19,157 nucleotides of DNA from Clostridiales bacterium. Lineage in GTDB: Bacteria > Bacillota_A > Clostridia > Oscillospirales > Oscillospiraceae. The translations under genes and the position numbers were made by a program. Positions 1-19,157 of the stretch are shown here, piece after piece. The DNA is taken from the NCBI GenBank assembly GCA_019417795.1, contig DXUR01000017.1, forward strand, positions 1-19,157. Reading direction: 5' to 3'. Position 1 is the stretch's first letter; every line of letters starts with the position of its first letter. The notes below the pieces were generated by a model, which was not told the DNA's origin, made no database searches, and saw only the letters and a list, made by a program, of their open reading frames with translations.

Positions 1-2
1 TG

Positions 3-242: not shown

Positions 243-257
243 GGAAGGGGCGTTCCT

Positions 258-1680: not shown

Positions 1681-1755
1681 CGGCGTGGTCTCCTTGAAAT
1701 TCCTCTCAAGGCGAAGCTTCCGATTTTTTCAAATTGTCAAGTGTTTTTTTGCAAA

Positions 1756-1792
1756 AATAATCCAGACCGCCCTATCGGCGGTCTGGATTATT
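1756..1792 (-). terminator. Intrinsic terminator of the cobalamin operon
   Basis: A perfect inverted repeat has 16-bp arms (1756-1771 and 1777-1792) and a 5-nt loop. Read on the minus strand, the GC-rich core GGCGGTCTGG is followed by ATTATTTTTG, the normal layout of a Rho-independent terminator. It lies about 90 nt downstream of the last gene of the cluster. In the plus direction the downstream tract (ATTATTGCTTATCTT) is less uniform, so plus-strand termination is possible but weaker. Confidence 0.85.
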
Positions 1793-1882
1793 GCTTATCT
1801 TAATGAGATTACGGATAAGCCAGAGGTTTTGATTTTAAGCCTTGCCGCCGTTATGCAGTCTTCATATTTTGACTATTACCAT

Positions 1883-2791: not shown

Positions 2792-2825
2792 GTCTCTCCC
2801 CCTTTTTCCATCGGAACTTGTTTCG

Positions 2826-5344: not shown

Positions 5345-5355
5345 CTATGTCTCCT

Positions 5356-6318
5356 TCACAGTGCAAAGGGCAGCTTGACCCCGCAGCTCAAAAGCAGGGT
5401 GAGGATCGCTGTGACGGTCATCAGGCGGCACACGCGGGGGATGTCCTCGTGAGTGATCTCCCGCGATGCGTCGCCGATATACTCCTTTTTGTGCAGCACG
5501 CCGTGGTACCACGCATCCCCCGCCAGGCGCACGCCCAGCAGTCCCGCGCAGACGGATTCCGTCTGGGCTGAGTTGGGGCTGGCGTGCTTTCGACGGTCGC
5601 GGCGGAAGATCCGCCAGCCTGCCGCCGTATCCAGACCCATCAGGCCGCCCGCCGCCAGCATCAGAAGCGCCGACAGCCGCGCCGGGATGTAATTCACCAC
5701 GTCGTCGGCCTTGGCGGGTACAAGACCGATGTTCTTATAGGGCGGCTCCACATACCCCAGCATGGAGTCCATGGTGTTCACTGCCTTGTAGAAAAATCCC
5801 AGCGGTGCGCCGCCGATGGCCAGAAACAGCAGCGGCGCCACCACGCCGTCGGAGGTGTTCTCCGCCACCGTTTCCACGGCGGCACGGGTCACGGCGGCAT
5901 CGTCCAGCCGGTCGGTATCCCGCCCCACGATCATGGAAACAGCATGGCGGGAGGCGGCCAAATCCCCGCTTTCCAGCGCATCATAGACCTTCATGCTCTC
6001 GTCCCGCAGGGACTTGACGGCCAAGATCTGCCAGCACATCACGCTTTCCAGCGCCAGACGCAGCCACGGGCTGACCAGACCGCTCAGCCACAGCAGCAGA
6101 GCCGGGACGGCGGTGGATACGATGACCACCGCTCCCCACAGGATGGCGCCCGCCGCCCGCTCACCGGAGGGCGTTTTGGGGCATATGCACCGCAGCCCCC
6201 GCTCCAACACACTGATACATTTTCCAATCAGAACTACCGGATGGGGAAAGCCGTGGGGGTCGCCCACCAGAAGGTCTATGCAAAAGCCGATAACAAGTGC
6301 CGCAAGCGACCACATCAT
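5356..6318 (-). CDS. cbiB: Adenosylcobinamide-phosphate synthase CbiB
   Basis: CbiB is an integral membrane protein that joins aminopropanol phosphate from CobD to adenosylcobyric acid, giving adenosylcobinamide phosphate. At 320 aa it matches the family. The N-terminus has the characteristic IDLLVGDPHGFPHPVVLIGK (14-33). Hydrophobic stretches follow around residues 55-80 and 190-220. NTSDGVVAPLLFLAIGGAP and AVNTMDSMLGY are conserved CbiB blocks, and the C-terminus ends in a last hydrophobic segment (TAILTLLLSCGV). The ATG overlaps the stop of the preceding fusion gene by 4 nt (ATGA), so translation is likely coupled. It sits with cobD and cbiP, the genes for its two substrates. Confidence 0.95.
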   Translation of the reverse strand: MMWSLAALVIGFCIDLLVGDPHGFPHPVVLIGKCISVLERGLRCICPKTPSGERAAGAILWGAVVIVSTAVPALLLWLSGLVSPWLRLALESVMCWQILAVKSLRDESMKVYDALESGDLAASRHAVSMIVGRDTDRLDDAAVTRAAVETVAENTSDGVVAPLLFLAIGGAPLGFFYKAVNTMDSMLGYVEPPYKNIGLVPAKADDVVNYIPARLSALLMLAAGGLMGLDTAAGWRIFRRDRRKHASPNSAQTESVCAGLLGVRLAGDAWYHGVLHKKEYIGDASREITHEDIPRVCRLMTVTAILTLLLSCGVKLPFAL

Positions 6319-8303
6319 ACCGTTTCTCCTCCGCCCTGCATCGTAAAAATATAAATGGGATTTTGTCCGCTCATCAGGTGGTAGCTTCCGGCTTTTCTGT
6401 CCCGCGCTGCTTGCAGGGACACCACCTCCGTCTCCGCAAAGGGGAATGCCGGCAGGCAGCCCGTCAGTTCAGCCACGGACTCCAGCGAAACGGCCGTGGC
6501 CACGATGCGGACATGAGGATTTTTTGCCAGCAGCAGCGCCACGATCTCGTGCATATTGCCGGCACTGCCGCCGATGAATGCGTGAGTGGGGGCTGGCAGA
6601 CCGACGCAGGCCTCCGGCGCGCTGCCGCAGACCACCTGTAAGTTTTCCAATGCAAACCGATTACGGTTTTGCCCCAGTAGCGCTGCGGCATCCTCTCGCC
6701 GCTCTACGGCGCAGACAAGCCCTTGCTTTGCCTGTAAGGCCATTTCCACCGACACTGAGCCGGTACCGGCACCGATGTCCCAGCAGACGCTCCGCTCCGT
6801 CAGCCGCAGCTTGGACAGGCACACCGCCCGCACCTCGCTTTTCGTCATAGGCACCACCGGCATTCCCTCCGCACTGCGGAGAAAGGCGTCATCCGGCAGA
6901 CCCGGTGTGACCACCGCGTCGGGTTGGGGGTTTTCGATAAGCGCCACGCTCAGGGGGGCATAGACACCATCCGTCAGCTCCGCCGCCGTGCCGCGCACGA
7001 TGCGCTCATCCGGGTAGCCCAGCCGCTGGCCCACATACACAGAGACATGGCCCAGATCACCCTCTGTCAGCGTACGGCATAGATCGTTGATGCCGCGCTC
7101 GCCGCCTACCAGCGCAAAGAGGCGGCCATTTGCCCGCACCTCCGGCAGAATGTTGTGCTGCCGCCCGTGGAGACTCACCACCCGGACATCCTCATAGGAG
7201 GTCCGGAGCCGGGCGCACAGATAGGACAACGAGCTCAAACCCGGCAGCACCGCCGTGTCGCAGCCCTCCAGCAGGGGCAGCAGCTTTTTCGTGCCGCTGA
7301 AGAAGCCGGTGTCGCCGGACATGACCACCGCGAAGCGGTGGTACTCCCAGTGGGTGCGGATAAAGTCCGCAATATCCTGCGGCGCAATGGCGTCGCAGGT
7401 GTGCTGTCCCGGCCGTGCCACAGCCTCCAGCATCCGTTTTGCGCCGATGAGACAGTCCGCCGCCTCAATGGTTTCACTGACCTCACGGGTCATAGCCTCC
7501 CGGCTGCCGGGGCCGATGCCGACGATCCGCCCCGGCGGCCGGAGGGTGCAGCCAAACCGCTTACACAGCACATCCAGCACCGCCGCAAAGGGAAGACCCT
7601 CCCGCTGGGGCGGGCGGCCAATGACCACCAGACCTGCGCCCGCCTTCCGGGCGGCGGATGCCTTAGCGGGAAAGCCGCCGGCTTCGCCGCCGTCCTTGGT
7701 CACCATCCATGCGGCGTCGGCAAACCGCAGTGTGGCCAGATCCATCTCCTCGGAGAAAGGCCCCTGCATGGCGATGATATGGGCGGCCTTCAGCCCTGCT
7801 GCGCGGCAGGCCTCCAGCGAGGCATCCATGGGCAGCACCCGGGCGTATACCCGCTGGGTAAAATCGGGGATGGCGCTGTACGCCGCCAGTTCCTTACTGC
7901 CGGTGGTCAGCAGGATATTGCCCCGCGTACTCTCCAGAAATGCGGCGGCCGCCGCCGCATTCTCCACGCAGACCACATCCTCCGTCTGTTCGGAGGATTG
8001 CCGCAGCAGACGCAGATACTCCGTCTCCGTTTCCCGACAGGCTGTGCAGATGCTCTCGGTGATGGAGGTGGCATAGGGGTGGGTAGCGTCGATGACCAGA
8101 TCGAACCGGGTCTCTTGCAGCATCCGGATGATGTCCTCCACCGGGATACGCCCCGCCAGAACCGTAATGTTTTCCGCCTCCGGCAGCAGCGTTTCACCGT
8201 ACTCCGTGGCCACGCATACCGTAGCCTGCACCGGCTGTCCGGCCAGGAATTCCACCAGTTCCCGGCCCTCCGTGGTGCCGGCAAACACGCAGATATTACA
8301 CAT
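6315..8303 (-). CDS. Tri-domain CbiJ-CbiE-CbiT fusion: cobalt-precorrin-6A reductase, C5-methyltransferase and C15-methyltransferase/decarboxylase
   Basis: One uninterrupted 662-aa frame holds three enzymes. Residues about 1-250 are CbiJ, the NAD(P)H-dependent reductase of cobalt-precorrin-6A, with CVFAGTTEGREL, IDATHPYATSI (71-81) and VTKDGGEAGG (201-210). Residues about 258-460 are CbiE, a tetrapyrrole methyltransferase, with IVGIGPGS (260-267), VVMSGDTGFFSGTKK (326-340) and PGLSSLSYLC (354-363). Residues about 470-655 are CbiT, a Rossmann-type SAM methyltransferase that also decarboxylates the C12 acetate, with VPMTKSEVRAV (484-494) and the SAM loop WDIGAGTGSVSVE (508-520). CbiE-CbiT fusions (CobL type) are common; adding CbiJ at the N-terminus is less usual. 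The three act consecutively, or nearly so, so fusion fits channelling of unstable intermediates. The start ATG overlaps the cbiH stop by 8 nt. The linkers (about 251-258 and 458-470) are short, which argues against an assembly artefact. Confidence 0.93.
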   Translation of the reverse strand: MCNICVFAGTTEGRELVEFLAGQPVQATVCVATEYGETLLPEAENITVLAGRIPVEDIIRMLQETRFDLVIDATHPYATSITESICTACRETETEYLRLLRQSSEQTEDVVCVENAAAAAAFLESTRGNILLTTGSKELAAYSAIPDFTQRVYARVLPMDASLEACRAAGLKAAHIIAMQGPFSEEMDLATLRFADAAWMVTKDGGEAGGFPAKASAARKAGAGLVVIGRPPQREGLPFAAVLDVLCKRFGCTLRPPGRIVGIGPGSREAMTREVSETIEAADCLIGAKRMLEAVARPGQHTCDAIAPQDIADFIRTHWEYHRFAVVMSGDTGFFSGTKKLLPLLEGCDTAVLPGLSSLSYLCARLRTSYEDVRVVSLHGRQHNILPEVRANGRLFALVGGERGINDLCRTLTEGDLGHVSVYVGQRLGYPDERIVRGTAAELTDGVYAPLSVALIENPQPDAVVTPGLPDDAFLRSAEGMPVVPMTKSEVRAVCLSKLRLTERSVCWDIGAGTGSVSVEMALQAKQGLVCAVERREDAAALLGQNRNRFALENLQVVCGSAPEACVGLPAPTHAFIGGSAGNMHEIVALLLAKNPHVRIVATAVSLESVAELTGCLPAFPFAETEVVSLQAARDRKAGSYHLMSGQNPIYIFTMQGGGETV

Positions 8304-9027
8304 TGCGGTATCCTCTGGGTGTGACCAGTTGACCGGCCACCGTTTTGACGGCGGCGCTGCCGATCAGCACGGTGCAGAACATATCCACCTCCGCCTCCCG
8401 CAGCTCTGCCAGCGTCAGGATGCGGCTGCTCTGCCCCTCACGGCCAATATTGCGCACGATGCCGCACAGCCGCTCTCCCGGCAGACGGCGCAGCAGGATA
8501 TCGCAGGCCCGCTTCAGGTGGTCGGGTCTGCCGTGGCTGGCGGGGTTGTACAGGGCGATGGTCAGATCCGCCGCCGCCGCGCAGTCCAGCCGCTTTTCGA
8601 TGGTTTCCCACGGCGTCAGCCGATCGCTGAGGCTGATGACCGCAAAGTCGTGGGTCAGCGGCGCACCCAGCACCGCTGCGGCGCTGCAAGCCGCCGTCAG
8701 ACCAGGCACAACCTGAATTTCAGGCTCCTGCGCCTCGCCCCGCAGCTCATAGACCAGCGCCGCCATGCCGTAGATGCCGCTGTCACCGGAGCAGACCATG
8801 GCGACGGTCTTACCGCTGCGCGCCAGTTCCAGCGCCAGCTGGCAGCGCTCGGCCTCCCGTGTCATGGGGGTGGAGTGAAGCTCCTTGCCGGGGTAGCGAT
8901 CCCGCACCAGATCCACATACACCGGGTAGCCTACGATGGCGTCACACGCCCGCAGGGCGGTATCCGCCCGAATGGTCATATCCTCATAGCTGCCCGGCCC
9001 GATACCTACTACAATTACCTTACCCAA
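8296..9027 (-). CDS. cbiH: Cobalt-precorrin-3B C17-methyltransferase CbiH
   Basis: CbiH methylates C17 and drives ring contraction of cobalt-precorrin-3 (or cobalt-factor III). It is a 243-aa class III SAM tetrapyrrole methyltransferase. Motifs are KVIVVGIGPGS at the N-terminus, VCSGDSGIYGMA, VPGLTAACSAAAVLGAP, HDFAVISLSD and IALYNPASHGR, the last being typical of CbiH/CobJ. I chose the TTG at 9027 because GGGAGGTG lies 5-6 nt upstream and the protein then starts directly at the conserved strand. The in-frame ATG at 9054 would add nine residues encoded within cbiG. With the TTG start, cbiH overlaps cbiG by 8 nt and the downstream fusion gene by 8 nt. No extra C-terminal domain is present. Confidence 0.92.
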   Translation of the reverse strand: MGKVIVVGIGPGSYEDMTIRADTALRACDAIVGYPVYVDLVRDRYPGKELHSTPMTREAERCQLALELARSGKTVAMVCSGDSGIYGMAALVYELRGEAQEPEIQVVPGLTAACSAAAVLGAPLTHDFAVISLSDRLTPWETIEKRLDCAAAADLTIALYNPASHGRPDHLKRACDILLRRLPGERLCGIVRNIGREGQSSRILTLAELREAEVDMFCTVLIGSAAVKTVAGQLVTPRGYRNV

Positions 9028-10030
9028 AGCGCACCTCCCAATGCTCCGCCGCAACGGCGACGGTCACGCCGTCCCGCGCTGTTTTTTGTACGATCAGTTT
9101 TTCGGCATCCAGCAGCGCCGCCCGCTCACAGACATTGTCCACGCCGGTAACGGAGCGGACGAAGTCGGAGGGAGTGAAGTCACCCGCCACATCCCGCAGC
9201 TGCTGCGCCGTGTAAAAATGCACCGGCCAGTTGTTTTTCTCACAGGCGGCCAGCAGGCCTGCCTCGTCCTGCTTCAGGTCGATGGAACAGACGCCGCAGA
9301 TGGCCGCCGTGTCCAGCCCATTTTCCGCGAACACTGTCTGCACCGCACGCACCACCGCCTCGGCGGAGATGCCCCGCCGGCAGCCTACACCTACCCGCAG
9401 TACGCGAGGGATAAGCCGCAGGGTGCGGGCGAAGTGTGCCTTTGTACGCCAGCCAATGAAAACGCCCAGCGGGCCACTCTCCCCGGCAAACGTACCCTCC
9501 GGCAGGGGGGCGGGCAGAGAAAACTGGCTGCAAAGGGGGATATCCTCCTCTAAGATCGCCGCCGAAACCGCCTTGGCAAGCCCCATGTCAGAGATGACGC
9601 AGCCGTGCCGGGCAGCCCATGCGTCCACGGAAAATTTTCCCCGGATGTCGGTGGCGGTGGTGACCACCGCCGTGGCCCCCAGCTTTTCCGCCAGCTCCAC
9701 CGCCAGCGCGTTGGCGCCGCCGATATGGCCGGAGAGCAGGGGGATCACAAACCGCCCCGCCTCGTCGATGCACAGCACCGCCGGGTCGGTTTTTTTGCTT
9801 TTGACATAGGGGGCGATCTCCCGCACGGCGATGCCGCAGGCCCCCACGAAGATCAGTGCGTCCATGGAGGAAAAGCTCGCGCCGTATACCGCCTTGTCCA
9901 GCGGCAGAAAGCCCGGCTCTTCAAAACGCGGCATGGTATAGCACATCCATGCCTCCTCCGGCAGCGCCGCCAGTATCCGCCGCGCCGTGACGCAGCCGCC
10001 CCGGCTGAAGGCGAACAGGGCGGCTCTCAT
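9020..10030 (-). CDS. cbiG: Cobalt-precorrin-5A hydrolase CbiG
   Basis: CbiG opens the delta-lactone of cobalt-precorrin-5A and releases acetaldehyde, a step specific to the anaerobic pathway. The 336-aa length is normal. The N-terminal domain contains FVGACGIAVREIAPY (61-75) and the signature PLLSGHIGGANALA (97-110). A middle domain follows with FSVDAWAARHG. The C-terminal domain (about 210-330) starts at LRVGVGCRRGISAEAV and includes AICGVCSIDLKQDEAGL. The ATG overlaps the end of cbiF by 4 nt and the 3' end overlaps cbiH. The presence of CbiG and CbiD places this cluster in the cobalt-early, oxygen-independent route. Confidence 0.95.
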   Translation of the reverse strand: MRAALFAFSRGGCVTARRILAALPEEAWMCYTMPRFEEPGFLPLDKAVYGASFSSMDALIFVGACGIAVREIAPYVKSKKTDPAVLCIDEAGRFVIPLLSGHIGGANALAVELAEKLGATAVVTTATDIRGKFSVDAWAARHGCVISDMGLAKAVSAAILEEDIPLCSQFSLPAPLPEGTFAGESGPLGVFIGWRTKAHFARTLRLIPRVLRVGVGCRRGISAEAVVRAVQTVFAENGLDTAAICGVCSIDLKQDEAGLLAACEKNNWPVHFYTAQQLRDVAGDFTPSDFVRSVTGVDNVCERAALLDAEKLIVQKTARDGVTVAVAAEHWEVRFG

Positions 10031-10782
10031 TGCGCCCCCTTGCGGAACTCCGTTGTAAAATCGGGGTGGTACAGCAGGGAGCGCAGATAGTTGTCACCCA
10101 GACAGTTGCCCACCACGATCAGCGAGGTCTTGGTCAGACCGTTGCCCGTCACCGTCTCGTGGAGCGTGCCCACCGTGCAGCGGAAGATATGCTCCTCCGG
10201 CCAAGTGGCCTTGTAGACCACCGCCGCCGGGGTGTCAGCGGTATAGCCTCCCGCCAGCAGCTCATCTTGCAGCAGTTCGGTCAGTGAGGTGCTGAGAAAC
10301 AGCACCATGGTGGCCTGATGGGCTGCCAGCGAGCGGATGGACTCCCGCTCCGGCACCGGCGTGCGGCCGGGAGCGCGGGTGATGATGACGGTCTGGCTCA
10401 CATCGGGCAGGGTGTACTCCGCCCGCAGCGCGGACGCTGCGCCGCAGAAGGCGCTGACGCCGGGGCAGACATCGTAGACAATGTCCCGCTTTTCCAGCTC
10501 GTCGAACTGCTCCCGCACCGCACCATAGATGCTGGAATCCCCCGTGTGCAGACGCACCGTGGTCTTTCCCTCCGCCTCCGCTTTCTCGATGAGGGCGATA
10601 ACCTCCTCCAGCGTCAGCTTGGCGCTGTCGTGGATCTCGCAGCTCTCCCTGGTGTAGTCCAGTAGCGCCGGATTCACCAATGAGCCGGCGTAGATCACCA
10701 CGTCGGCCTCGCCCAGCAGCTTGGCGCCCCGGACGGTGATGAGGTCGGCAGCGCCGCTGCCCGCTCCCACAAAATGTACCAT
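10027..10782 (-). CDS. cbiF: Cobalt-precorrin-4 C11-methyltransferase CbiF
   Basis: CbiF transfers a methyl group from SAM to C11 of cobalt-precorrin-4. The 251-aa product has the tetrapyrrole methylase layout: VHFVGAGSGAADLITVRG at the N-terminus, VVIYAGSLVNPALL (28-41), VRLHTGDSSIYGAV, DVCPGVSAFCGAASAL, and TVIITRAPGRTPVPERESI, the last being strongly typical of CbiF/CobM. The ATG is preceded by AAAGGAGGACTGACA and lies 2 nt after the cbiD stop. The gene end overlaps cbiG by 4 nt (ATGA). Length and motifs are complete. Confidence 0.95.
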   Translation of the reverse strand: MVHFVGAGSGAADLITVRGAKLLGEADVVIYAGSLVNPALLDYTRESCEIHDSAKLTLEEVIALIEKAEAEGKTTVRLHTGDSSIYGAVREQFDELEKRDIVYDVCPGVSAFCGAASALRAEYTLPDVSQTVIITRAPGRTPVPERESIRSLAAHQATMVLFLSTSLTELLQDELLAGGYTADTPAAVVYKATWPEEHIFRCTVGTLHETVTGNGLTKTSLIVVGNCLGDNYLRSLLYHPDFTTEFRKGAQ

Positions 10783-10784
10783 TG

Positions 10785-11912
10785 TCAGTCCTCCTTTATC
10801 CGGCGCAGCAGTGCCGCTGCGTCCTTCGTCTCACAAAGATAGCCATATTCCTTGGAAAAGAGGATGGCTCCCGTCTCTATATCACTGCATTTATAGTGCA
10901 TCATGTCGTCAATGCGCCGGGCCAGCCGGTGCAGCACTGCGTCATAAAGTCCCTGCTCCTTCAACAGCCGCAGGGCGTCGTCACAGGTGGCGCAGCGGAG
11001 CAGCTCCTCCGCTGCCGCTGCGCCCAGTCCCTCTGCGGCGGCACAGGCCGTCAGGATGTCCATGCGGCAGTCGCCGTAGCGGGAGTGGGTGTTCCACATA
11101 CCGCCCGCCAGCTTTACCAGCTTGCCGATGTGACCGATGAGCAGCGCCCCTCGGAAGCCCAGCTCCCGGCACATCTCCAGCGCATCGCCGATGAAGTTGG
11201 AGGTCATCACCGCCGTGGCGGGGTCGATGCCCATGGCACCCTTGATATAGTCTACGCCGTAGTTGCCGGGGGCCAGCAGCACATAGTCCGCGCCGCCCTC
11301 CCGCCGCTGCCGCAGCTCTACATGGATGGTGTCCACCAGCGCCTGCTCGCTCATAGGCTCTACGATCCCCGTGGTGCCTAAGATAGAGATGCCGCCCTTG
11401 ATGCCCAGCCGGGGGTTGAAGGTCTTTTTCGCCAGCGTCTCGCCATCGGGAGCGGAGATCACCACCCGCAGCCCGCCGGTGTAGCCCAGCAGACCGCAGA
11501 CCTCCTCCACATTTTCCCGGATCATCCGGCGGGGCACGGAGTTGATGGCCGCTGCTCCCACCGGCTGGTCAAGCCCCGGCTTGGTTACCCGGCCCACGCC
11601 CTGTCCGCCATCGATGACAATACCAACAGCCTCTGTTTTCCGCACCTCGGCATAAACGAGGGTGTCACGGGTGATATCCGGGTCGTCGCCGCTATCCTTC
11701 CGGATGGCGCAGCGCACACAGTCCAGGGAGCTGTGGATGTCCTCCACCGCCAGCGTCAGCTCCATGCCCTTGGGTGTCAGCAGGCGAATGGACTCCTTTT
11801 TGCTGCCGCTCAGCAGCATCCATGCGGCGGCCTTGGCTGCCGCCGCGGCACAGGAGCCGGTGGTGTAGCCCAGACGGAGCTTTTTTCCGTCCCGTATGAT
11901 AAATTCCTTCAT
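10785..11912 (-). CDS. cbiD: Cobalt-precorrin-5B C1-methyltransferase CbiD
   Basis: CbiD methylates C1 of cobalt-precorrin-5B and is a marker of the anaerobic pathway. The 375-aa protein starts with LRLGYTTGSCAAAAAKAA (12-29), the family signature. It continues with VIDGGQGVGRVTKPGL, VPRRMIRENV, ISILGTTGIVEPMSEQAL, LAPGNYGVDY and the C-terminal block LIGHIGKLVKLAGGMWNTHS. CbiD has its own fold, unlike the neighbouring SAM methylases. The gene starts 3 nt after the cbiC stop and ends 2 nt before cbiF. No defects are seen. Confidence 0.96.
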   Translation of the reverse strand: MKEFIIRDGKKLRLGYTTGSCAAAAAKAAAWMLLSGSKKESIRLLTPKGMELTLAVEDIHSSLDCVRCAIRKDSGDDPDITRDTLVYAEVRKTEAVGIVIDGGQGVGRVTKPGLDQPVGAAAINSVPRRMIRENVEEVCGLLGYTGGLRVVISAPDGETLAKKTFNPRLGIKGGISILGTTGIVEPMSEQALVDTIHVELRQRREGGADYVLLAPGNYGVDYIKGAMGIDPATAVMTSNFIGDALEMCRELGFRGALLIGHIGKLVKLAGGMWNTHSRYGDCRMDILTACAAAEGLGAAAAEELLRCATCDDALRLLKEQGLYDAVLHRLARRIDDMMHYKCSDIETGAILFSKEYGYLCETKDAAALLRRIKED

Positions 11913-11915
11913 GAC

Positions 11916-12542
11916 CTACCGCCTGATCTGGTAGAGCATGGCGTTGCAGATGGCCGCCGCCACATTGCTGCCGCCCTTGCGGCCCCGGGACACGATGTAG
12001 GGTGCGGCAGCGGCCTCGATGATGCGCTCCTTGCTCTCCACCACATTCACAAAGCCCACCGGTACCCCGATGATGAGGGCGGGACGGAGCTTGTCTGCCT
12101 CCATCAGCTCCTCCAGCGAAAAAAGTGCCGTAGGGGCGTTGCCGATGGCGAAGATGCAGGGCTTGGGCAGGGCTGCTGCCCGCTCCATGGATACAAAGGC
12201 ACGGGTCACGCCCCGCTCCTTAGCCTCCGCCGCCACGTCCGCGTCCGACATGAAGCAGTGTACCTCTCCGCCCAGCGAGGCGAGGATCGTCTTATTGATC
12301 CCGGCCTTGGCCATCTGGGTATCGGTGACGATGTCGCAGCCCGCCCGTAGAGCGGCGATGCCCTTTTGCACCGCATGGCCGGAAAAGGCCAGATTGTCCA
12401 CATAGTCAAAATCCGCCGTGGTGTGGATGACCCGTTTGATGACCAGCTCGTTTTCCGGGTCCAGCCGCCGGTCGCCCAGCAACTCTGTGATGATGGCGAA
12501 GCTGCGCTTCTCAATGTCCATAGGCTTCATTTGCTCCATCAT
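11916..12542 (-). CDS. cbiC: Cobalt-precorrin-8 methylmutase CbiC
   Basis: CbiC moves a methyl group from C11 to C12, converting cobalt-precorrin-8 to cobyrinic acid. The product of about 208 aa has normal length. The catalytic histidine is His40 in VIKRVIHTTADFDY. Other conserved parts are LRAGCDIVTDTQMAKAGI, PCIFAIGNAPTALF, LIIGVPVGFVNVVESKE and GRKGGSNVAAAICNAML. Two Met codons in tandem, at 12542 and 12539, overlap the cbiA stop. AAAGGAGA upstream fits either; I give the first. Longer in-frame extensions would lie within cbiA and are not conserved-looking. Confidence 0.95.
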   Translation of the reverse strand: MMEQMKPMDIEKRSFAIITELLGDRRLDPENELVIKRVIHTTADFDYVDNLAFSGHAVQKGIAALRAGCDIVTDTQMAKAGINKTILASLGGEVHCFMSDADVAAEAKERGVTRAFVSMERAAALPKPCIFAIGNAPTALFSLEELMEADKLRPALIIGVPVGFVNVVESKERIIEAAAAPYIVSRGRKGGSNVAAAICNAMLYQIRR

Positions 12543-13885
12543 AGCGTCTCCTTTCTGCAAGCCGCCAAAAAGCGCTGTGCCATGGCAGGCTTGGCGTAAA
12601 AATGGAAGTGGGGAAACCCCGCGTACAGCGTGTCCGTGGCATACGCACAGCACCACTGCTTTCCGGAGGGCTTTTCCGCCAGAAAAGCGCCGCCGGGCTG
12701 GGGGGTGTCCCAGTGGTGAAATTCATGCATGGGTATCTGTTCTCCGGCGCGGCAGAGGAGATTGTCCTCCCGGGCCGTGGCGGTGATATAGCCGAACCGG
12801 GTCAGCCTCCCCGTATCAAAGCAGTCCCCCGGCAGCGCACCCACCATGGCGCGGCCTGCGATGGACTGCGTCAGATACATGAAGCCGCCGCACTCGGCGA
12901 TACAGGGCATCCCCGCGTGTGCGGCCTCCCGAAGCTGCCTGCGCAGGGCGTGGTTTTCCTCCAACTGCGCCGCGTAAAGTTCCGGGTATCCGCCGCCTAA
13001 GTACAGCCCCTGTACACCGTTGGGGAGCCGTTCATCCGTCAGGGGGCTGAAGGGCACCAGCTCCGCGCCCAGCTGCCGCAGCAGGTCGAGACTGTCCTCA
13101 TAGTAAAAGCAGAACGCCCTGTCCCGCGCCACGCCGATCCGCACCGGCGCGCCCTTTTCCGGCAATACCGGCGGCGTGAAGTCCAGCACCGGCGCATTGT
13201 GGGCGATCTCCAGCAGCGCGTCCAGCTCCAGCGTCTTTTCCGCCGCCTCTGCCAGCTTCCGCAGTTTCTCCCGCAGATCTGCTACCTCGTCCGCTGTCAC
13301 CAGCCCCAGATGGCGGCTCTCCAGCGTGCACTCTGGCAGCCTGGGCAGATAGCCGCAGGCGCGGACGCCCAGCCGGCTTTCCAGCTCCCGCGCCAGCGCA
13401 CCGTAGCTCATGGCACTGCACCCGTTCAGAATGACGCCCTGCACGTTGTTGTCCGGTGCGAAGTCCAGAAAGCCCTGCACCGCCGCCACAACGGACAACG
13501 CCGCCCCCCGTGCGTTCACCACCAGCACCACGGGGCTTTCCGTTTCCCGCGCCGTCTCATAGGTGCTGGCGCGGGTGGAGGTGAGCCCCAGCCCGTCATA
13601 GTATCCCATGACGCCCTCAATGACCGTCACATCGCACTCCTCACCATTGTGCGCCAGCAGATAGCGCATGGTGTCGGGGTCAAAAAAGAACGGGTCGAGG
13701 TTAGAGCTTTTCGCGCCGATGACCCGGCTATGGAACATGGGGTCGATGTAATCCGGGCCGCATTTTGCCGCGCCTACCCGCAGACCCCGCGCTACCAGCG
13801 CCTGCAAAACGGCGCAGGTGACGGTGGTCTTGCCACAGCCGCTGTTGGTACCGGCCAGCACCAGCCGGGGTACGTCTCGTTGCAT
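12539..13885 (-). CDS. cbiA: Cobyrinic acid a,c-diamide synthase CbiA
   Basis: CbiA amidates the a and c carboxylates of cobyrinic acid, using ATP and glutamine. The 448-aa protein has the P-loop-like LVLAGTNSGCGKTT (8-21), the block KCGPDYIDPMFH (41-52), and VIEGVMGYYDGL (88-99). The C-terminal glutamine amidotransferase domain has LYLGGGYPELYA (294-305), nucleophile Cys332 in CIAECGGFMYL, and the HEFHHW segment (387-392). The related hydrogenobyrinate enzyme CobB belongs to the aerobic route; the neighbouring cbiD and cbiG make CbiA the right name here. The start is 9 nt after cbiL. The stop overlaps the cbiC start. Confidence 0.95.
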   Translation of the reverse strand: MQRDVPRLVLAGTNSGCGKTTVTCAVLQALVARGLRVGAAKCGPDYIDPMFHSRVIGAKSSNLDPFFFDPDTMRYLLAHNGEECDVTVIEGVMGYYDGLGLTSTRASTYETARETESPVVLVVNARGAALSVVAAVQGFLDFAPDNNVQGVILNGCSAMSYGALARELESRLGVRACGYLPRLPECTLESRHLGLVTADEVADLREKLRKLAEAAEKTLELDALLEIAHNAPVLDFTPPVLPEKGAPVRIGVARDRAFCFYYEDSLDLLRQLGAELVPFSPLTDERLPNGVQGLYLGGGYPELYAAQLEENHALRRQLREAAHAGMPCIAECGGFMYLTQSIAGRAMVGALPGDCFDTGRLTRFGYITATAREDNLLCRAGEQIPMHEFHHWDTPQPGGAFLAEKPSGKQWCCAYATDTLYAGFPHFHFYAKPAMAQRFLAACRKETL

Positions 13886-13894
13886 AGCGCCCTC

Positions 13895-14581
13895 TCAATC
13901 CGCCACGATGGTGGCAAAATAGCTGATCTCCTCCGGCAGCTGCCGCAGGTCGGTGTAGATCTGCTCTGTCTCCAGTCCGCAGTCCGCCACCATACCGGCG
14001 TTTGCCGCCATACCGCGGCGCTCCAGCGCCGCCGCCGTCTCGTGGATGGCCTTGCCGGACTTCATGATGACCTTCGTTCCCGGCAGTGCCAGCGCACTGT
14101 CCAGATCGGCGCTGCCCGGCAGGATGTGGAGGGGCTCCTCCATGCGGGTGAGGCTGCGCCCCAGCCGCGCCGCCACGGCGCAGAAGCTGGTGACGCCGGG
14201 ACACATCACCGTTTCATAGCCATCGGTTCGGATGCGCTCAAGGATGTAGTAGGCCGTGGCGTACACGGACACGTCGCCCAGATTGACCATGGCCACGTCC
14301 TGCCCGGCCGCCAGCGCCGTTTCGATGGCGGCAGCCGCCGTGCGGTAGCTGTCCTCCCGTACCGCCGCATCATGCGCCATGGTGAAATCCAACGGCAATA
14401 TGGTCTTACCCTGCATATCCACAGCACCGGCGGCGATGTCCAGCGCCAGCATCCGCCCGGACTTCATCCGGGGAGCGGCCACCACGCCGCACTCCGTCAA
14501 GACCCGGCACGCCTGCCGGGTCAGCAGCTCCGGGTCGCCGGGACCCACGCTGACGGCGTAAAAAACACCTTGTTTTTCCAT
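13895..14581 (-). CDS. cbiL: Cobalt-factor II C20-methyltransferase CbiL
   Basis: CbiL methylates C20 of the cobalt-sirohydrochlorin made by CbiK. The 228-aa SAM-dependent tetrapyrrole methylase has FYAVSVGPGDPELLTRQA at the N-terminus, MVNLGDVSVYATAYYILE in the middle, VMCPGVTSFCAVAARLG, and LHILPGSADL. I chose the ATG at 14581 because AAGGAG stands about 7 nt upstream and the conserved strand begins seven residues later. An open frame running further upstream lies within the ATPase gene and looks like an antiframe artefact (Arg/Gly/His rich). It starts 11 nt after the ABC ATPase gene, linking the uptake module with the ring-synthesis genes. Confidence 0.93.
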   Translation of the reverse strand: MEKQGVFYAVSVGPGDPELLTRQACRVLTECGVVAAPRMKSGRMLALDIAAGAVDMQGKTILPLDFTMAHDAAVREDSYRTAAAAIETALAAGQDVAMVNLGDVSVYATAYYILERIRTDGYETVMCPGVTSFCAVAARLGRSLTRMEEPLHILPGSADLDSALALPGTKVIMKSGKAIHETAAALERRGMAANAGMVADCGLETEQIYTDLRQLPEEISYFATIVAD

Positions 14582-14592
14582 GATAGCACTCC

Positions 14593-15360
14593 TTACGGCA
14601 CAAATTCCAGGCTGTCGAAGCAGGGGTCGTACTTCCCGTGCTCCATCCGGTACAGCTTTGCGATATACTCGCGGGTGAAAATCTCCTCCGGGGTGCCGAT
14701 GCGGTCGATGCGGTCGCCCGCCACGCACACCACCGTGTCGGAAATGCGCTCCGCCAGCTCCAGCTCGTGGAGCGACAGCAGCACCGCCAGATCGTTCTCC
14801 CGCACCATGCGCTTGAGCACCGTCAAAAGCTCCAACTTGTAGCGAATATCCAGAAAGCTGGTGGGCTCGTCCAGCACGATGATCTCCGGCTCCTGACACA
14901 GCGCCCGGGCCAACAGAATGCGCTGGCGCTGTCCGTCACTGATGGCGGAGAAGGGGCGGTCAGCAAACTCCATGCCGCCTACCTGCTCCAGCGAGCGCTC
15001 CACGATGGCCTGATCCTCCGGCTGCAAAATGCCCAGCCGCCCGGTATAGGGGTAGCGGCCGCTGCTCACCACGTCCCGGCAGGTCATCAGCTCCGGCTCC
15101 ATCCGGGCCGTCATCAAAATGGCCATGCGCCGGGCGATCTCATTGCGGCTGCGCTCCTCCATGGCCTTGCCGTCCAGAAACACCGTGCCGGACACCTTGG
15201 AGAGCTGGCCGATAATGGTTTTTAAGATGGTGGATTTTCCCGACCCGTTGGGGCCGATGAGCGTCACGATCTTGCCCCGCTGCACATGGAGGGCGACATC
15301 TTCAATCAGCGGCTTGCCGTGGTAGCCCACGGCAAGCGCCTTGGTTTCCAGATATGCCAT
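14593..15360 (-). CDS. ABC transporter ATPase of a BtuD/FecE-type importer
   Basis: This 255-aa ATPase powers import by the neighbouring permease. Walker A is GPNGSGKST (36-44), Walker B is IIVLDEPTSFLD (160-171), the D-loop follows, and the switch histidine is His198 in LSLHEL. Two sites deviate. The signature is ISDGQRQR (140-147) instead of the usual LSGGQ. The Q-loop region reads AILMTARMEPELMT (80-93) without an obvious glutamine. The region from 100 (SGRYPYTG) is typical of the siderophore/heme/cobalamin importer class. The start ATG lies 2 nt after the permease stop; an upstream in-frame extension overlaps the permease gene and is not protein-like. The substrate cannot be read from this subunit. 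Placement between cbiK and cbiL suggests cobalt, a cobalt chelate or a corrinoid. Confidence 0.92.
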   Translation of the reverse strand: MAYLETKALAVGYHGKPLIEDVALHVQRGKIVTLIGPNGSGKSTILKTIIGQLSKVSGTVFLDGKAMEERSRNEIARRMAILMTARMEPELMTCRDVVSSGRYPYTGRLGILQPEDQAIVERSLEQVGGMEFADRPFSAISDGQRQRILLARALCQEPEIIVLDEPTSFLDIRYKLELLTVLKRMVRENDLAVLLSLHELELAERISDTVVCVAGDRIDRIGTPEEIFTREYIAKLYRMEHGKYDPCFDSLEFVP

Positions 15361-15362
15361 AC

Positions 15363-16376
15363 TCACGCCGCCTTTCTGTGGATCATCATGTAGATGACGA
15401 TGGGTGCGCCGAATACCGCCGTGACGGAGCTGATGCTCACCTCTGTGGGGGCAAAGGCGGTGCGGGCGACGAGGTCGCAGAACAGGCAGAACACGCCGCC
15501 GCCTAAAAAGCAGGCCGGGATCATACACAGCGGCTCCGCCGATTTGAACAGGGACTTCATCAGGTGCGGCACTGCGATGCCAACAAAGGAGATGGGGCCG
15601 GCAAAGGCCGTGACGCAGGCGGACAGCACACTGGACAGCAGGATCAGCGCCGTCCGGAAGGCCCGCAGGGGGACGCCCATATTTTGGGCATAGACCTCGC
15701 CCAACTGGTACGCCCGGATGGGCTTGGAAAGCAGGAAGGTCAGCAGCAGCGTGACGCCGCAGACGCCGGCCATGGTCTTTACATTCTCCCAGCTCATGCC
15801 GGAGAAGGAGCCGAGAGACCAGTTGTGCAGATTCACGATGCTGGAATCGTCGGCAAAGGTCACGAGAAAATCCGTCAGTGCCGAGCAGATATAGCCGATC
15901 ATCACGCCGCAGACCACCAGCAGGCTCATGCGCTTGACCCGCTGGGAGATCAGCAGCACGAAGCCCATGGACACCATAGCTCCCACGAAGGCCGCTGCGA
16001 TGAGAATGGCGGAGGAGGTGGTCTTGCCACGGCTCAGCAGCACCAGCATGGCCACGCACACCGTCATCTTTGCGCCGGAGGAGATGCCCAGCACGAAGGG
16101 GCCTGCGATGGGGTTGTGGAAGAAAGTTTGCAGCAGATAGCCGGACAGGGACAGCGCCCCACCCAGGATCAGCGCCGACAGGAGCCGGGGCAGACGGATC
16201 TTTACGATGATCTGGCTCTGGGTAAAGCCAACATCGCCCCCCAGCAGGATCCGCCATATCTCAGACGCGGAAAGAGAAACGCTTCCCGCGAAGATATTCC
16301 AAATCAAAAATGTGAATAAAAGCAGGAGGAGCAGCAAAAAGCCTCCCCAGATGCGAAGTGTTCGGTTTCTCTTCAT
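15363..16376 (-). CDS. BtuC/FecCD-type ABC permease
   Basis: This 337-aa multi-pass membrane protein belongs to the FecCD/BtuC family, which normally works as a homodimer. A strong first hydrophobic helix covers residues about 10-30. The family block GGALSLSGYLLQTFFHNPIA is followed by GPFVLGISSGAKM. Later come SWENVKTMAG and the ATPase-coupling segment AGPISFVGIAVPHLMK. The end SVTAVFGAPIVIYMM is typical. The ATG at 16376 is preceded by TAAGGAGGA with a 5-nt spacer. Gaps are 29 nt to the binding-protein gene upstream and 2 nt to the ATPase gene downstream, so the three form one transporter. Only one permease gene is present, which fits a homodimeric channel. Confidence 0.93.
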   Translation of the reverse strand: MKRNRTLRIWGGFLLLLLLLFTFLIWNIFAGSVSLSASEIWRILLGGDVGFTQSQIIVKIRLPRLLSALILGGALSLSGYLLQTFFHNPIAGPFVLGISSGAKMTVCVAMLVLLSRGKTTSSAILIAAAFVGAMVSMGFVLLISQRVKRMSLLVVCGVMIGYICSALTDFLVTFADDSSIVNLHNWSLGSFSGMSWENVKTMAGVCGVTLLLTFLLSKPIRAYQLGEVYAQNMGVPLRAFRTALILLSSVLSACVTAFAGPISFVGIAVPHLMKSLFKSAEPLCMIPACFLGGGVFCLFCDLVARTAFAPTEVSISSVTAVFGAPIVIYMMIHRKAA

Positions 16377-16405
16377 GCCGCTCCTCCTTATGATGTAAAA
16401 AATGC

Positions 16406-17557
16406 TCACTTCATCCGTGTCAGAAAGTGAAAAGCCGTATCCGGCGCGTCGTTCAACGCATGGTTCACGTCCAGAATGAGATCGCTCAGCTCCAGCGACT
16501 CCTGATAGAAGTTTTTGGTCAGGCACCACACATTACCGCTCTTGACGGCCTTGAAGTCGGCCATCAGTGGATCCAGTGCCACCAATTCGTCCAGCGTGTG
16601 CAGCTCGCCATCGATGATGCTGTTGTAGATCAGCACATCGGCGTCCACTGCACCGTGGTAGAAGGATTCCATCTGAATGTTGACGGTGGACTGGGCGTTG
16701 TCCTCCGCCGATTCATCGAAGGAGACATAGTCTCCGCCGGCGATGGCAACGCACTTCGCCACATAGTCCGTGGACTTGCGGACGTTTACAGCGCCGCTGC
16801 TGGTGATGTAGAAAAACGCCACAGTCTTGCCGGTGGGCTGCTGCTCCAGTACGTCCGCCACGCTGTCCATCTTCTCATTAAACAGCGCCTCGGCCTCGTC
16901 CTCCTTGTCCAGCAGCGCCGCGTACAGCTTGATCCACTCCATCCGGCCCATGGGCTGGGTCTCGTAGCTGGATGTCTCCACCAGCACAGGGATGCCCATC
17001 CGCTCCAGTTGCTCCAGCACCGCCGGAGAGTGATAGATCATGGTGTTTTCCACCGCCAGATCGCAACCCTGTGACAAGATCAGCTCATAATCCGGCTCGG
17101 AGTACTTGCCGGCGTATACCATCGCTCCGCTGTCCATGGCGTCCTTGGCACGTTGGATATACCAGTCCGACTGCTTTTTGCCGCTGAGGGTGATGCACCC
17201 GACGGCGTCCAGCTTGTCGAAGTAGTCCATGGCGGCGGCGGCTACCAGATAGATCTGGTCCAGCGGCTGGTGCAAAACAGTGACGCCGGAGGGTATTCCG
17301 TCAGGCACCGCCGCGCCCTCCGCTACCAGCAGGTACACCCGGTCGTTGTTGATGGTGATGCGCTTGTAGCTCTCTCCGGCATACTCTACGGTAAACTGCT
17401 GGGCATAGCGCAGGGGCATGGTACGGTCAAAGACCAACTCATCCCACGATACGGAGACAGTTTGTCCATCTGTTTTGGCAGGGGCGTCTGCCGTGCCGCA
17501 GCCACAGAGGGACAGCATCAGCAGCAGCGCCAGTACCGCGGCGGTCAGCCGTTTCAC
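16406..17557 (-). CDS. ABC importer substrate-binding lipoprotein (BtuF/FecB-like)
   Basis: The 383-aa protein begins with a lipoprotein signal: MKR, a hydrophobic stretch to residue 17, and LCGC with the lipidated Cys at 20. The rest resembles class III (Peripla_BP_2) binding proteins, with two lobes joined by a long helix. The first half contains DQIYLVAAAAMDYFDKLDAV and YAGKYSEPDYELILSQGCD; the middle reads IPVLVETSSYETQPMGRMEW; the second half contains VDADVLIYNS and a final LSDLILDVNHAL. The start is a GTG at 17557 with GGAGG 7 nt upstream, overlapping the preceding lipoprotein stop by 4 nt. The family is seen with iron-siderophore, heme and cobalamin importers. The ligand here is unknown; context favours cobalt or a tetrapyrrole/corrinoid. 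Confidence 0.9.
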   Translation of the reverse strand: MKRLTAAVLALLLMLSLCGCGTADAPAKTDGQTVSVSWDELVFDRTMPLRYAQQFTVEYAGESYKRITINNDRVYLLVAEGAAVPDGIPSGVTVLHQPLDQIYLVAAAAMDYFDKLDAVGCITLSGKKQSDWYIQRAKDAMDSGAMVYAGKYSEPDYELILSQGCDLAVENTMIYHSPAVLEQLERMGIPVLVETSSYETQPMGRMEWIKLYAALLDKEDEAEALFNEKMDSVADVLEQQPTGKTVAFFYITSSGAVNVRKSTDYVAKCVAIAGGDYVSFDESAEDNAQSTVNIQMESFYHGAVDADVLIYNSIIDGELHTLDELVALDPLMADFKAVKSGNVWCLTKNFYQESLELSDLILDVNHALNDAPDTAFHFLTRMK

Positions 17558-18390
17558 TGGGCTGCCTCCACCACCGTGGTGGAATCAAAGGTCAGGGTGT
17601 ACTCGATCTCGTGGGGGGTGCTCATAGCGGTGGTGTCGCCGATCACCGTCAGCGGGGTATCCAGCGCCCGCACGGGGATCTCGAAGGTGGAGCCGCCCTC
17701 GGTGGTGAGAACGTCATAGCGCTGTCCGTCCACCAGCATATAGTCGTACTTCTGGCTGCTCCACACGATGGTGGCGGTGGCAGCGCCGTTCTCCACCTTC
17801 AGGGTGCAGGGGGTCAGCACATGGGACTTACCGGAGCCGCCCTCAAAGCCTACCTCAATGGTGTAAGTGCCGTCCGCCAGCGTAATGGCGGCAGCGTCCA
17901 CGCAGTCATCCTCCTTCAGAACAGGGTTGGAGACGGAGACCTTGTGGTCATACCACACGCCCTTCTTGCCGATGAGGGCCACGTCGAACTCCGTGTCCAG
18001 TGCGGGCACGGGGATATCAAAGCCGTTGACCGTCTCGGTCAGGCCATCGGGATAGGTGACGGTGTCCTTGGTGGGCTGCAGCAGCACGGCGCCGTCCTTC
18101 TGTGCGTCCTCCTTCAAACCGGGGAACAGGTTGACGATGCTGGTGGAGGCGAGGCTGACGTGAATGGTCATCTGCCCGTCCTTCACGGTCAGTACGCCCT
18201 TGCCGTCGCAGGTCTCGTTGGCGTGGAACATACTGCTGTCGGTGTTGAAGTCGGCGGTGTATACGCCGTCCGCCAGAGCGGGCTGGTCGGGCTCCTCGTT
18301 GCCGGGGGCATCGGTCTGCTGCTGCCCGCAGCCCACCAGCAGCGCTGTCATCATCAGAGCGGCCAGCAGAAACGAAAGAATTTTTTTCAT
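17554..18390 (-). CDS. Lipoprotein with two tandem NEAT-like repeats, candidate metal/tetrapyrrole-binding partner
   Basis: The 278-aa protein has a lipoprotein signal with lipobox LVGC (Cys21) and a short Gln/Pro/Glu-rich linker. Two related domains follow. The first is about 39-153 and the second about 171-270. Each starts with LADG(V/T)YT, has a strand-like LTVKDGQMTIHV or LKVENGAATATIV, and ends with F(D/E)IPV(P/R)ALDT. This plan resembles NEAT domains, the heme-binding modules of Gram-positive surface proteins, but the match is by eye, and the usual heme-ligand YxxxY pair is not clearly present. Candidate ligand residues include Met54, His56, Cys61, His149, His190 and Met218. The ATG at 18390 has AAGGAGG upstream, and the end overlaps the binding-protein gene by 4 nt. 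It may capture ligand and pass it to the ABC importer. No specific function is proven. Confidence 0.85.
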   Translation of the reverse strand: MKKILSFLLAALMMTALLVGCGQQQTDAPGNEEPDQPALADGVYTADFNTDSSMFHANETCDGKGVLTVKDGQMTIHVSLASTSIVNLFPGLKEDAQKDGAVLLQPTKDTVTYPDGLTETVNGFDIPVPALDTEFDVALIGKKGVWYDHKVSVSNPVLKEDDCVDAAAITLADGTYTIEVGFEGGSGKSHVLTPCTLKVENGAATATIVWSSQKYDYMLVDGQRYDVLTTEGGSTFEIPVRALDTPLTVIGDTTAMSTPHEIEYTLTFDSTTVVEAAQ

Positions 18391-18416
18391 GGTAAAGTCC
18401 TCCTTGCTTTGAAAAA

Positions 18417-18449
18417 GGCTCCGAGGCGATAATATACCGCCCCGGAGCC
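18417..18449 (-). terminator. Intrinsic terminator or attenuator between cbiK and the uptake genes
   Basis: Arms at 18417-18428 and 18438-18449 form a 12-bp stem (11 Watson-Crick pairs plus one G-U wobble) with a 9-nt AT-rich loop. On the minus strand the stem is followed at once by TTTTTC, a classic Rho-independent layout. It lies 13 nt after the cbiK stop and about 26 nt before the lipoprotein start codon. No separate promoter is evident in the remaining gap, so partial read-through is the simplest reading: more cbiK transcript than downstream transcript. Confidence 0.85.
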
Positions 18450-18462
18450 CGTTCAGTCCTTG

Positions 18463-19157
18463 TTACGCGATAGCGTCGATGGCAGCCTTGGTGTGTGCCA
18501 CGTAGAGAGCCTGCACGTCCGCGATACGGCCCAGACCGGAGATCTGGCAGTTCACGGTGAAGCCGGCGGCCTCAAACATGGTCTTCCAGGAATCCTCGTC
18601 CGCACCGGCCATGTCGTTGTTGGCGTGGTCGCCCGCCACGACCATCAGGGGACGCAGCACCACGGTGGTGTAGCCGGCGTTCTTGACGGCCTCGATCACG
18701 GCCTCGCAGGAGGTCTCCTCGGGCTCGCCCTCCACGGTGCCGACGAACACGTTCTCATAGCCCAGCTTGGCCATCTGGGTGGCCATCTGGCTGTAGGTGA
18801 CCTTGGCCACGTGCGCCGTACCGTGACCCATCAGCACATAAGCCACACCGGCCTCCTTGGCGGCGGCGGTAGACTCGTAACCGCTCTCGCTCAGAGCAGC
18901 GGCGACGACGGCCTTGGCAACGGCTTCCTTATCGGTGTTGATGACGGTGGCGTCGCTTCCCACCTCACCCAGCATGGGCTCGGCGATCTCAACGGACTCG
19001 AACTTGTCACGAACCTTGTCAATGGCGGCGCACATCTCGTCGTACTCAGCACCGTGCATCAGATGGGTGGGCTGCACCACCAGCTGCTTCACGCCGTTGG
19101 CGACAGCGCGCTCCAGAGCCTGCTCCATGTTGTCGATCTTCTCGCCGTCACGGGCCT
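18463..19157 (-). CDS. cbiK: Sirohydrochlorin cobaltochelatase CbiK (N-terminus outside window)
   Basis: CbiK inserts Co2+ into sirohydrochlorin, the entry step of the anaerobic pathway. The frame is open through the right edge; 231 residues are visible and about the first 50 of a standard 260-aa CbiK are missing. The three active-site/metal residues known from the Salmonella enzyme are present: His in VLMGHGTAH, Glu in VGTVEGEPEE, and His in VVAGDHANNDMAG. Other conserved parts are QPTHLMHGAEYDE near the visible start and ISGLGRIADVQALYVAH near the end. A Met nine codons into the visible part is not the true start because homology continues before it (ARDGEKIDN). Some CbiK proteins outside this group are exported; whether this one carries a signal peptide cannot be seen. 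Confidence 0.95.
   Translation of the reverse strand, partial: ARDGEKIDNMEQALERAVANGVKQLVVQPTHLMHGAEYDEMCAAIDKVRDKFESVEIAEPMLGEVGSDATVINTDKEAVAKAVVAAALSESGYESTAAAKEAGVAYVLMGHGTAHVAKVTYSQMATQMAKLGYENVFVGTVEGEPEETSCEAVIEAVKNAGYTTVVLRPLMVVAGDHANNDMAGADEDSWKTMFEAAGFTVNCQISGLGRIADVQALYVAHTKAAIDAIA

Follow-up and report, generated by a model that had tools for sequence, protein, structure and literature searches.

A cobalamin-regulated surface locus of gut Firmicutes combines NEAT domains with an exported CbiK and may serve tetrapyrrole salvage

Introduction

Exported forms of the cobaltochelatase CbiK are already known from Desulfovibrio (CbiKP) and Porphyromonas (IhtB/FetB), and so are NEAT domains and bacteria that salvage tetrapyrrole precursors. 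Desulfovibrio vulgaris also has a cytoplasmic CbiK. The heme-ligand motif of NEAT domains is YxxxY. In this study we analyse a gene for a lipoprotein with two NEAT domains that lies directly behind cbiK in an anaerobic cobalamin operon of a Clostridiales bacterium. The whole stretch of DNA that was analysed, called the window, comprises 19,157 nucleotides (assembly GCA_019417795.1, contig DXUR01000017.1, positions 1 to 19,157). Together with its relatives in other genomes, this locus probably encodes a cobalamin-regulated surface system by which a sirohydrochlorin-type ring is captured, receives its cobalt while still outside and is then taken up as a precursor of cobamides.

A functional corrin pathway in Porphyromonas gingivalis was reportedly described by Roper in 2000. 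In the accessible text of a survey by Shelton et al. the species is listed without the steps to precorrin-2 (PMC6461909), and the same puzzle of missing precursors has already been raised for it. Its IhtB/FetB is treated as a heme or porphyrin chelatase and not as an entry step to B12 in the accessible parts of three reports (PMC10913741, PMC13227078, PMC13402209). Shelton et al. define tetrapyrrole precursor salvagers as bacteria that have kept the corrin pathway while precursor genes are missing (PMC6461909). In the portions of that survey available to us, CbiL/CobI is annotated in 87.1% of the salvagers as against 99.2% of the producers, and dependence on 5-aminolevulinic acid (ALA) was tested on three species, all of them predicted ALA salvagers (PMC6461909).

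Results

The frame of the NEAT gene reads 18390..17554 on the minus strand and encodes a lipoprotein of 278 aa. Its lipobox LVGC (18328..18339, minus strand) ends in Cys21, which is invariant in a 20-row alignment, and is followed by two domains: NEAT1 (residues ~39-158; 17917..18276, minus strand) and NEAT2 (residues ~170-274; 17569..17883, minus strand). The lipobox, the NEAT-like character and an internal duplication had all been proposed in a first-pass annotation of the window, and our analysis bears them out. The Pfam model PF05031 matches the protein with an E value of 1.9e-7 and 32.0 bits, just below the gathering score of 32.8. At E<=0.01 it matches 36 of the 45 members of our alignment A2, the window protein among them, and 88 of 120 homologues among the matches listed carry a precomputed PF05031 assignment. 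The predicted structure adopts the Ig-like NEAT fold, and its structural matches are heme-carrying NEAT domains. Searched against the PDB, the NEAT family profile found no NEAT sequence and nothing better than weak matches to galectins (E 0.88 and worse), and a PDB search with the single window sequence gave nothing convincing.

Domain 1 aligns to domain 2 with a local score of 60, compared with a mean of 28.8 (standard deviation 5.3) for shuffled sequences, and none of 2000 shuffles scored as high. The starts that had been recognised as LADGxYT are indeed found, LADGVYT at residue 39 and LADGTYT at residue 171. The segments FDIPVPALDT and FEIPVRALDT are present as well, but they had been read as the domain ends, and the true ends lie ~25-30 residues beyond them, at the last strand. 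As suspected before, YxxxY is absent from the window protein, which has YDHKV in NEAT1 and HEIEY in NEAT2. Across the family, the pattern W-Y-x-[HR]-x-[VLI] is present in 118 of 130 NEAT1 domains, and NEAT2 shows H-x3-Y in 121 of 136 domains and Y-x3-Y in 6. Positions invariant in 45 rows are, in NEAT1, W146, Y147, H149 and V151, where the last strand begins, and, in NEAT2, Y215, Y217, M218, M256, P259, H260 and Y264.

Relatives of the locus were taken as the best 80 of 331 encoding stretches from a scan of species genomes, with record titles mostly of Lachnospiraceae (including Blautia), Faecalibacterium and other Oscillospiraceae. A search of the plasmid collection for the locus gave no match. 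CbiK is either fused to NEAT1 or lies no more than 2 kb upstream in 77 of the 80 loci; of the three exceptions, L036 and L057 start at a contig end and L009 has its CbiK 3 kb away. The first-pass annotation had expected a NEAT fold and homologues that keep company with cobalt, heme or corrinoid genes, and we found neither a different fold nor homologues without such genes. Separate genes in the order CbiK, NEAT1-NEAT2, binding protein occur in 47 of the 80 loci. Counted as stop-to-stop open frames, CbiK and NEAT1 share one frame in 19 loci (CbiK-NEAT1-NEAT2 in 6, CbiK-NEAT1 in 13), and the binding protein shares one with NEAT2 in 18 (NEAT2 alone in 17, NEAT1-NEAT2 in 1). In these fusions NEAT1 goes together with CbiK and NEAT2 with the importer, an arrangement suggestive of an order of hand-over.

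Some unusual arrangements were also noted. L108 (genome G229) has at 6177 two tandem CbiK domains and then NEAT1 in one frame, cut by the contig end. L196 (genome G035) encodes at ~2478-5800 a CbiK-containing protein of 654 residues with a signal peptide, adjoined by a long frame with several NEAT and binding-protein-like stretches; G035 also carries a normal locus (L061) and a cytoplasmic CbiK. L009 encodes a stand-alone NEAT2 protein (6867-7508, minus strand) with a membrane anchor-like C-terminal end, its gene being placed between cbiK and the double-NEAT gene, the latter on the other strand.

At the 80 loci 78 CbiK genes could be read, and 73 of these have a signal peptide, 62 of them with a lipobox. 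Four of the other five are cut by contig ends and one is a second, cytoplasmic copy (L061). A signal peptide is present in 73 of 73 readable CbiK N-termini of the relatives at the loci, among which a cytoplasmic location as in Salmonella was not found. The rule applied takes the first fitting Met of the stop-to-stop frame, which sets the starts of L001 and L005 too far upstream; in both a signal peptide is present downstream of the over-extended start. Among the matches listed for L001 CbiK, 119 of 120 relatives have a lipobox. The cbiK of the window (18463..19155, minus strand) is represented by its 3' part, 230 codons, with the 5' end outside the window. It matches PF06180 with an E value of 6.7e-56 and 189.9 bits (cut-off 26.2), and five full-length exported relatives reach 234-247 bits. 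Over 229 aa it is 86% identical to the protein P0214, whose N-terminus carries a signal peptide and a lipobox, and by this likeness the CbiK of the window would be exported as well.

The motifs GHG and GDHA, which we take to hold the two catalytic histidines of CbiK, are both kept in 122 of 122 exported proteins; the cytoplasmic class has them in 54 of 61. In Salmonella CbiK the catalytic histidines are 145 and 207, according to the accessible text of a review (PMC7689651). The CbiK part of the fused L024 protein was modelled (whole fusion: mean predicted local distance difference test score, pLDDT, 85.1; predicted template modelling score, pTM, 0.63), and the best structural matches of the predicted fold are Salmonella CbiK, Desulfovibrio periplasmic CbiK and P. 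gingivalis FetB. In a tree of 192 CbiK proteins, several nodes of which are weakly supported, the label exported or cytoplasmic switches 4 times by parsimony.

A cobalamin riboswitch (RF00174) is located directly upstream of exported cbiK on the same strand in all 25 loci searched (7/7, 8/8 and 10/10), 46-238 nt ahead of the assigned cbiK start in 15 of the 25. At 10 loci with cytoplasmic CbiK it was directly upstream in one, elsewhere in the stretch in four and lacking in five. No cobalamin riboswitch was seen in the window, where the cbiK start lies beyond the edge.

We also examined a sample that was not chosen by locus, namely 297 genomes from the family of the Faecalibacterium genome G024. 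CbiK is present in 112 of them; N-termini were read for 109 CbiK genes in 107 genomes, and the remaining 5 genomes with weak or partial matches were left out. Counting NEAT no farther than 3.5 kb away, 47 of 51 exported CbiK have it nearby, as do 2 of 49 cytoplasmic and 1 of 9 unclassified CbiK; L141 is counted here as cytoplasmic though its sequence resembles exported CbiK. Because of the difference between 47/51 and 2/49, NEAT goes with exported CbiK and not with CbiK in general. HemB was found in 11 of 49 exported-only and 28 of 45 cytoplasmic-only CbiD-positive genomes (Fisher p 1.4e-4, the test leaving out 9 genomes whose CbiK could not be classified, 2 that have CbiK of both kinds and 2 CbiD-negative genomes with cytoplasmic CbiK only). 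A split of CbiK by match length (11 exported genomes; HemB in 0/11 as against 45/96 other CbiD-positive genomes) was dropped, since shorter exported CbiK exist.

Gene content was determined for 40 genomes with the locus, drawn from the 80 loci. A second, cytoplasmic CbiK is present in 10 of these and absent from 30, where G040 was counted as having one CbiK on the basis of a sole fragment at a contig end beside the locus. CbiD was found in 38 of the 40 (9/10 two-CbiK and 29/30 one-CbiK genomes). The precursor genes differ between the two groups: HemB is present in 9/10 two-CbiK versus 4/30 one-CbiK genomes, HemC in 10/10 versus 5/30, CobA in 10/10 versus 6/30 and CbiL in 10/10 versus 11/30 (one of the 11 below cut-off). 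Altogether 23 of the 30 one-CbiK genomes have kept CbiD and have no match to HemB, HemC or CobA, so that they should not make the ring; 15 of these 23 have no CbiL match either. The 23 include a closed chromosome (L030, genome G025, Faecalibacterium sp. I4-3-84), with one CbiK and CbiD and no HemB, HemC or CobA, and incomplete assembly thus cannot be the whole explanation. The 5.9-Mb locus genome G011 is unusually large and may be mixed. Every CbiX match in the 40 genomes falls inside a CbiK gene, with no separate CbiX, and CobN was found in none of 78 genomes (the 40 locus genomes and 38 HemB-negative sample genomes, 37 with exported CbiK plus G191).

Corrin clusters from 13 CbiL-lacking genomes (12 of the 15, plus G016; L198-L210, L212) contain no cbiL. 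The genes from cbiD to cbiA form one run in 12 of the 13, and the run of G018 ends at cbiF. One of these clusters, L200 (G003), also carries cobT, cobU, cobS and a phosphatase gene; between the last two lies, at 4416-4799, a short second CobU-like gene that covers the C-terminal part of the CobU profile only.

In the window the operon forms one run on the minus strand, from cbiK through the NEAT gene, binding protein, permease and ATPase to cbiL and on through the remaining anaerobic corrin genes as far as cbiP. The NEAT gene follows cbiK directly, as had been read before, though the 72-nt spacer holds a 16-pair hairpin and then a U-run (18412..18450, minus strand; -32.2 kcal/mol, z -4.7). This feature was found by folding, a promoter/terminator scan having missed it, and by a simple rule a similar one is present in 6 of 47 cbiK-NEAT spacers of relatives. 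It is likely a terminator or attenuator, which would reduce expression of the NEAT gene and the importer relative to cbiK. The 4-nt overlap (GTGA) of the NEAT stop with the start of the BtuF/FecB-like substrate-binding protein, also noted earlier, is present. The latter protein (16406..17557, minus strand, GTG start) matches Peripla_BP_2 (Pfam E 1.9e-29) but not the IsdE-type model TIGR03659 (21.3 bits against 298.65). Next come a FecCD/BtuC-type permease (15363..16376, minus strand) and a BtuD/FecE-type ATPase recognised by profile matches (14593..15360, minus strand), both below NCBIfam equivalog cut-offs (BtuC, the best model for the permease, 208.4 versus 334 bits; corrinoid ATPase 201.8 versus 537 bits).

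cbiL follows (13895..14581, minus strand; TIGR01467 182.5 bits, above the cut-off of 163.25). The remaining operon at 2826..13885 (minus strand) comprises cbiA, cbiC, cbiD, cbiF, cbiG, cbiH, cbiJ-E-T, cbiB, cobD and cbiP. Each scores above the curated cut-off of its matching model except CobD (TIGR01140, 263.8 bits; cut-off 290.55). At the operon end, 1883-2959 on the minus strand, a frame of 358 codons matches Pfam Metalloenzyme and reaches 116.6 bits with the apgM phosphoglycerate mutase model (cut-off 320). A frame of 325 codons at 258-1235 on the plus strand matches Sigma-70 region 2 (Pfam E 1.2e-7).

Discussion

In this study we show that NEAT domains accompany an exported CbiK under cobalamin riboswitches in gut Firmicutes. 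CbiK export, the association of NEAT with exported CbiK, the fusions, the riboswitch and the loss of precursor genes argue for salvage of a ring and not of bare cobalt or a finished corrinoid. All five go beyond the first-pass annotation, which had thought of cobalt, a cobalt-tetrapyrrole or a corrinoid as ligand in preference to heme; the cobalt-tetrapyrrole is what we would retain, and the other two fit these five features poorly. From them we infer the ligand, the order of hand-over, the site of cobalt insertion and the direction of transport. On the outside of the membrane, NEAT1 and NEAT2 would bind the tetrapyrrole and exchange it with exported CbiK, which would insert Co2+ before the ring reaches the cytoplasm. 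Import of the cobalt-loaded ring would fall to the BtuF/FecB-like protein and the BtuCD-like ATP-binding cassette (ABC) transporter, and cytoplasmic Cbi enzymes would convert it to corrin. The most likely candidate for the ring is a uroporphyrinogen-derived isobacteriochlorin released by other organisms, either sirohydrochlorin (factor II) or the 20-methyl form, factor III. For hosts without precursor synthesis the system is likely the source of the ring; hosts that also make the ring (the Blautia type) would use it as an additional route of salvage.

Could the ligand be heme after all? NEAT would then strip heme, exported CbiK would remove or swap the metal as a reverse chelatase and the ABC transporter would import iron or porphyrin, along the lines proposed for Iht of P. 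gingivalis. This would agree with the heme-carrying NEAT domains among the structural matches and with the close structural match to FetB, IhtB/FetB being described, as far as the accessible literature goes, as a heme or porphyrin chelatase. However, the riboswitch before the genes in 25 of 25 loci searched is of the cobalamin class (sites of iron regulators were not searched for), the gene set lies in or beside corrin operons and YxxxY is missing from nearly all domains. Moreover, heme has lost side chains that are needed for corrin synthesis and cannot serve as a corrin precursor, which weakens an explanation that we regard as unlikely. Capture of a finished corrinoid such as cobinamide or B12, by a BtuFCD system that is ordinary except for its unusual accessory lipoproteins, would account for riboswitch control and for a transporter of the BtuCD/FecCD kind whose best NCBIfam models are BtuC and the corrinoid ATPase, though below cut-offs. 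It would leave unexplained why an exported cobaltochelatase with intact active-site motifs is present, in some loci fused to NEAT, and why the later corrin pathway is kept without HemB, HemC and CobA, where corrin genes would be idle; it appears distinctly unlikely.

Two further explanations separate cobalt from ring uptake. Metal-free or iron ring and cobalt might enter separately, another chelatase, for example of the CysG/Met8 type, loading the ring inside while exported CbiK has a side role. Our chelatase searches covered CbiK, CbiX and CobN, which leaves room for a CysG-N/Met8 enzyme, and 10 of the 40 locus genomes do have a second, cytoplasmic CbiK; yet the CobA/CysG C-terminal family is not above cut-off in 24 of the 30 one-CbiK genomes, so that a fused CysG is unlikely there, and we consider this arrangement very unlikely overall. 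The least credible possibility, to our mind highly improbable, is that exported CbiK and NEAT form only a cobalt-binding surface trap, with the ring made inside. CbiK acquires Co2+, as stated in the accessible text of a review (PMC7689651), and 28 of the 40 locus genomes have no CbiM match, but a trap does not explain the missing ring in the 23 of 30 one-CbiK genomes with CbiD and without HemB, HemC and CobA. Nor was another chelatase found that could load a ring made inside (second CbiK, CbiX and CobN were searched), and NEAT domains are ring binders.

Several points weigh against salvage of a ring with cobalt insertion outside. Export was assigned by an N-terminus rule of our own making and not by a trained predictor, and for the window, where the cbiK N-terminus lies beyond the edge, it would follow from the likeness to relatives. 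Many genomes are drafts or metagenome-assembled genomes (MAGs), and the Fisher tests of the HemB, HemC, CobA and CbiL contrasts (p 4e-6 to 5e-4) ignore kinship. The absence of another cobalt chelatase extends to CbiX, CobN and a second CbiK, the CysG/Met8 type lying outside the search. NEAT is not found near 4 of the 51 exported CbiK of the 297-genome sample. In the same sample HemB is present in 11 of 49 exported-only and absent from 17 of 45 cytoplasmic-only genomes; with these exceptions CbiK export and HemB loss are linked, not tied, and the link is weaker than in the 40 locus genomes. CbiM, considered as a sign of cobalt entering pre-chelated, failed to separate the classes (strong matches in 3/10 versus 6/30). 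Finally, CbiL is absent from 19 of 30 one-CbiK but 0 of 10 two-CbiK genomes, and import of plain cobalt-sirohydrochlorin would not suffice where it is absent.

The last point leads to a more tentative idea. It might be possible that these gut Firmicutes have shifted cobalt insertion, as a step of anaerobic B12 synthesis, to the outside of the cell. A metal-free ring from the environment would then serve as shared precursor and, in effect, as cobalt-catcher; CbiK-NEAT at the surface would load it, and the metalated form would be imported. The 15 genomes lacking HemB, HemC, CobA and CbiL would import factor III, since their ring would need prior methylation at C20. If this were true, factor III would be a new B12 intermediate exchanged between gut microbes. 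Salvage of a ring as such would bring a ring intermediate into the gut's trade in B12 compounds and extend the reach of NEAT domains beyond heme. In our literature search, whose coverage mostly leaves out subscription papers and preprints, we found no paper linking NEAT to CbiK and no description of extracytoplasmic cobalt insertion for B12.

We know of no NEAT domains in the Desulfovibrio cbiK-cbiL-btuCDF locus, and to our knowledge a TonB-dependent receptor is not to be expected in Firmicutes. Among the known systems, Desulfovibrio resembles ours in that one B12 riboswitch covers cbiK-cbiL and btuCDF, although btuCDF is interpreted as vitamin B12 transport in the accessible text of that study (PMC545781); its periplasmic CbiKP structures 2xvz and 2xvx are top structural matches of the modelled L024 CbiK part. 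The NEAT hemophores of the Isd family differ: here YxxxY is replaced by Y..V/L/I and H..Y, and the NEAT domains lie among cobalamin genes, next to CbiK or fused to it. Locus genomes that have CbiD and a single CbiK but lack matches to HemB, HemC and CobA, 23 of the 40, are like the tetrapyrrole precursor salvagers, for which the accessible text names no uptake system or transporter (PMC6461909); the question of how the ring is taken up now gains named genes in Lachnospiraceae, Faecalibacterium and relatives. The Iht system of P. gingivalis is different in using a TonB receptor, and NEAT domains are not mentioned in the accessible parts of the reports (PMC10913741, PMC13227078, PMC13402209). 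Nevertheless it is similar in pairing a signal-peptide CbiK homologue (IhtB/FetB), whose structure (9b86) is likewise a top match of the modelled L024 CbiK part, with the binding protein, permease and ATPase of the IhtC-E transporter (PMC10913741). The same arrangement, an exported CbiK homologue beside a binding protein and a FecCD ABC transporter, is found in the relatives of the locus described here.

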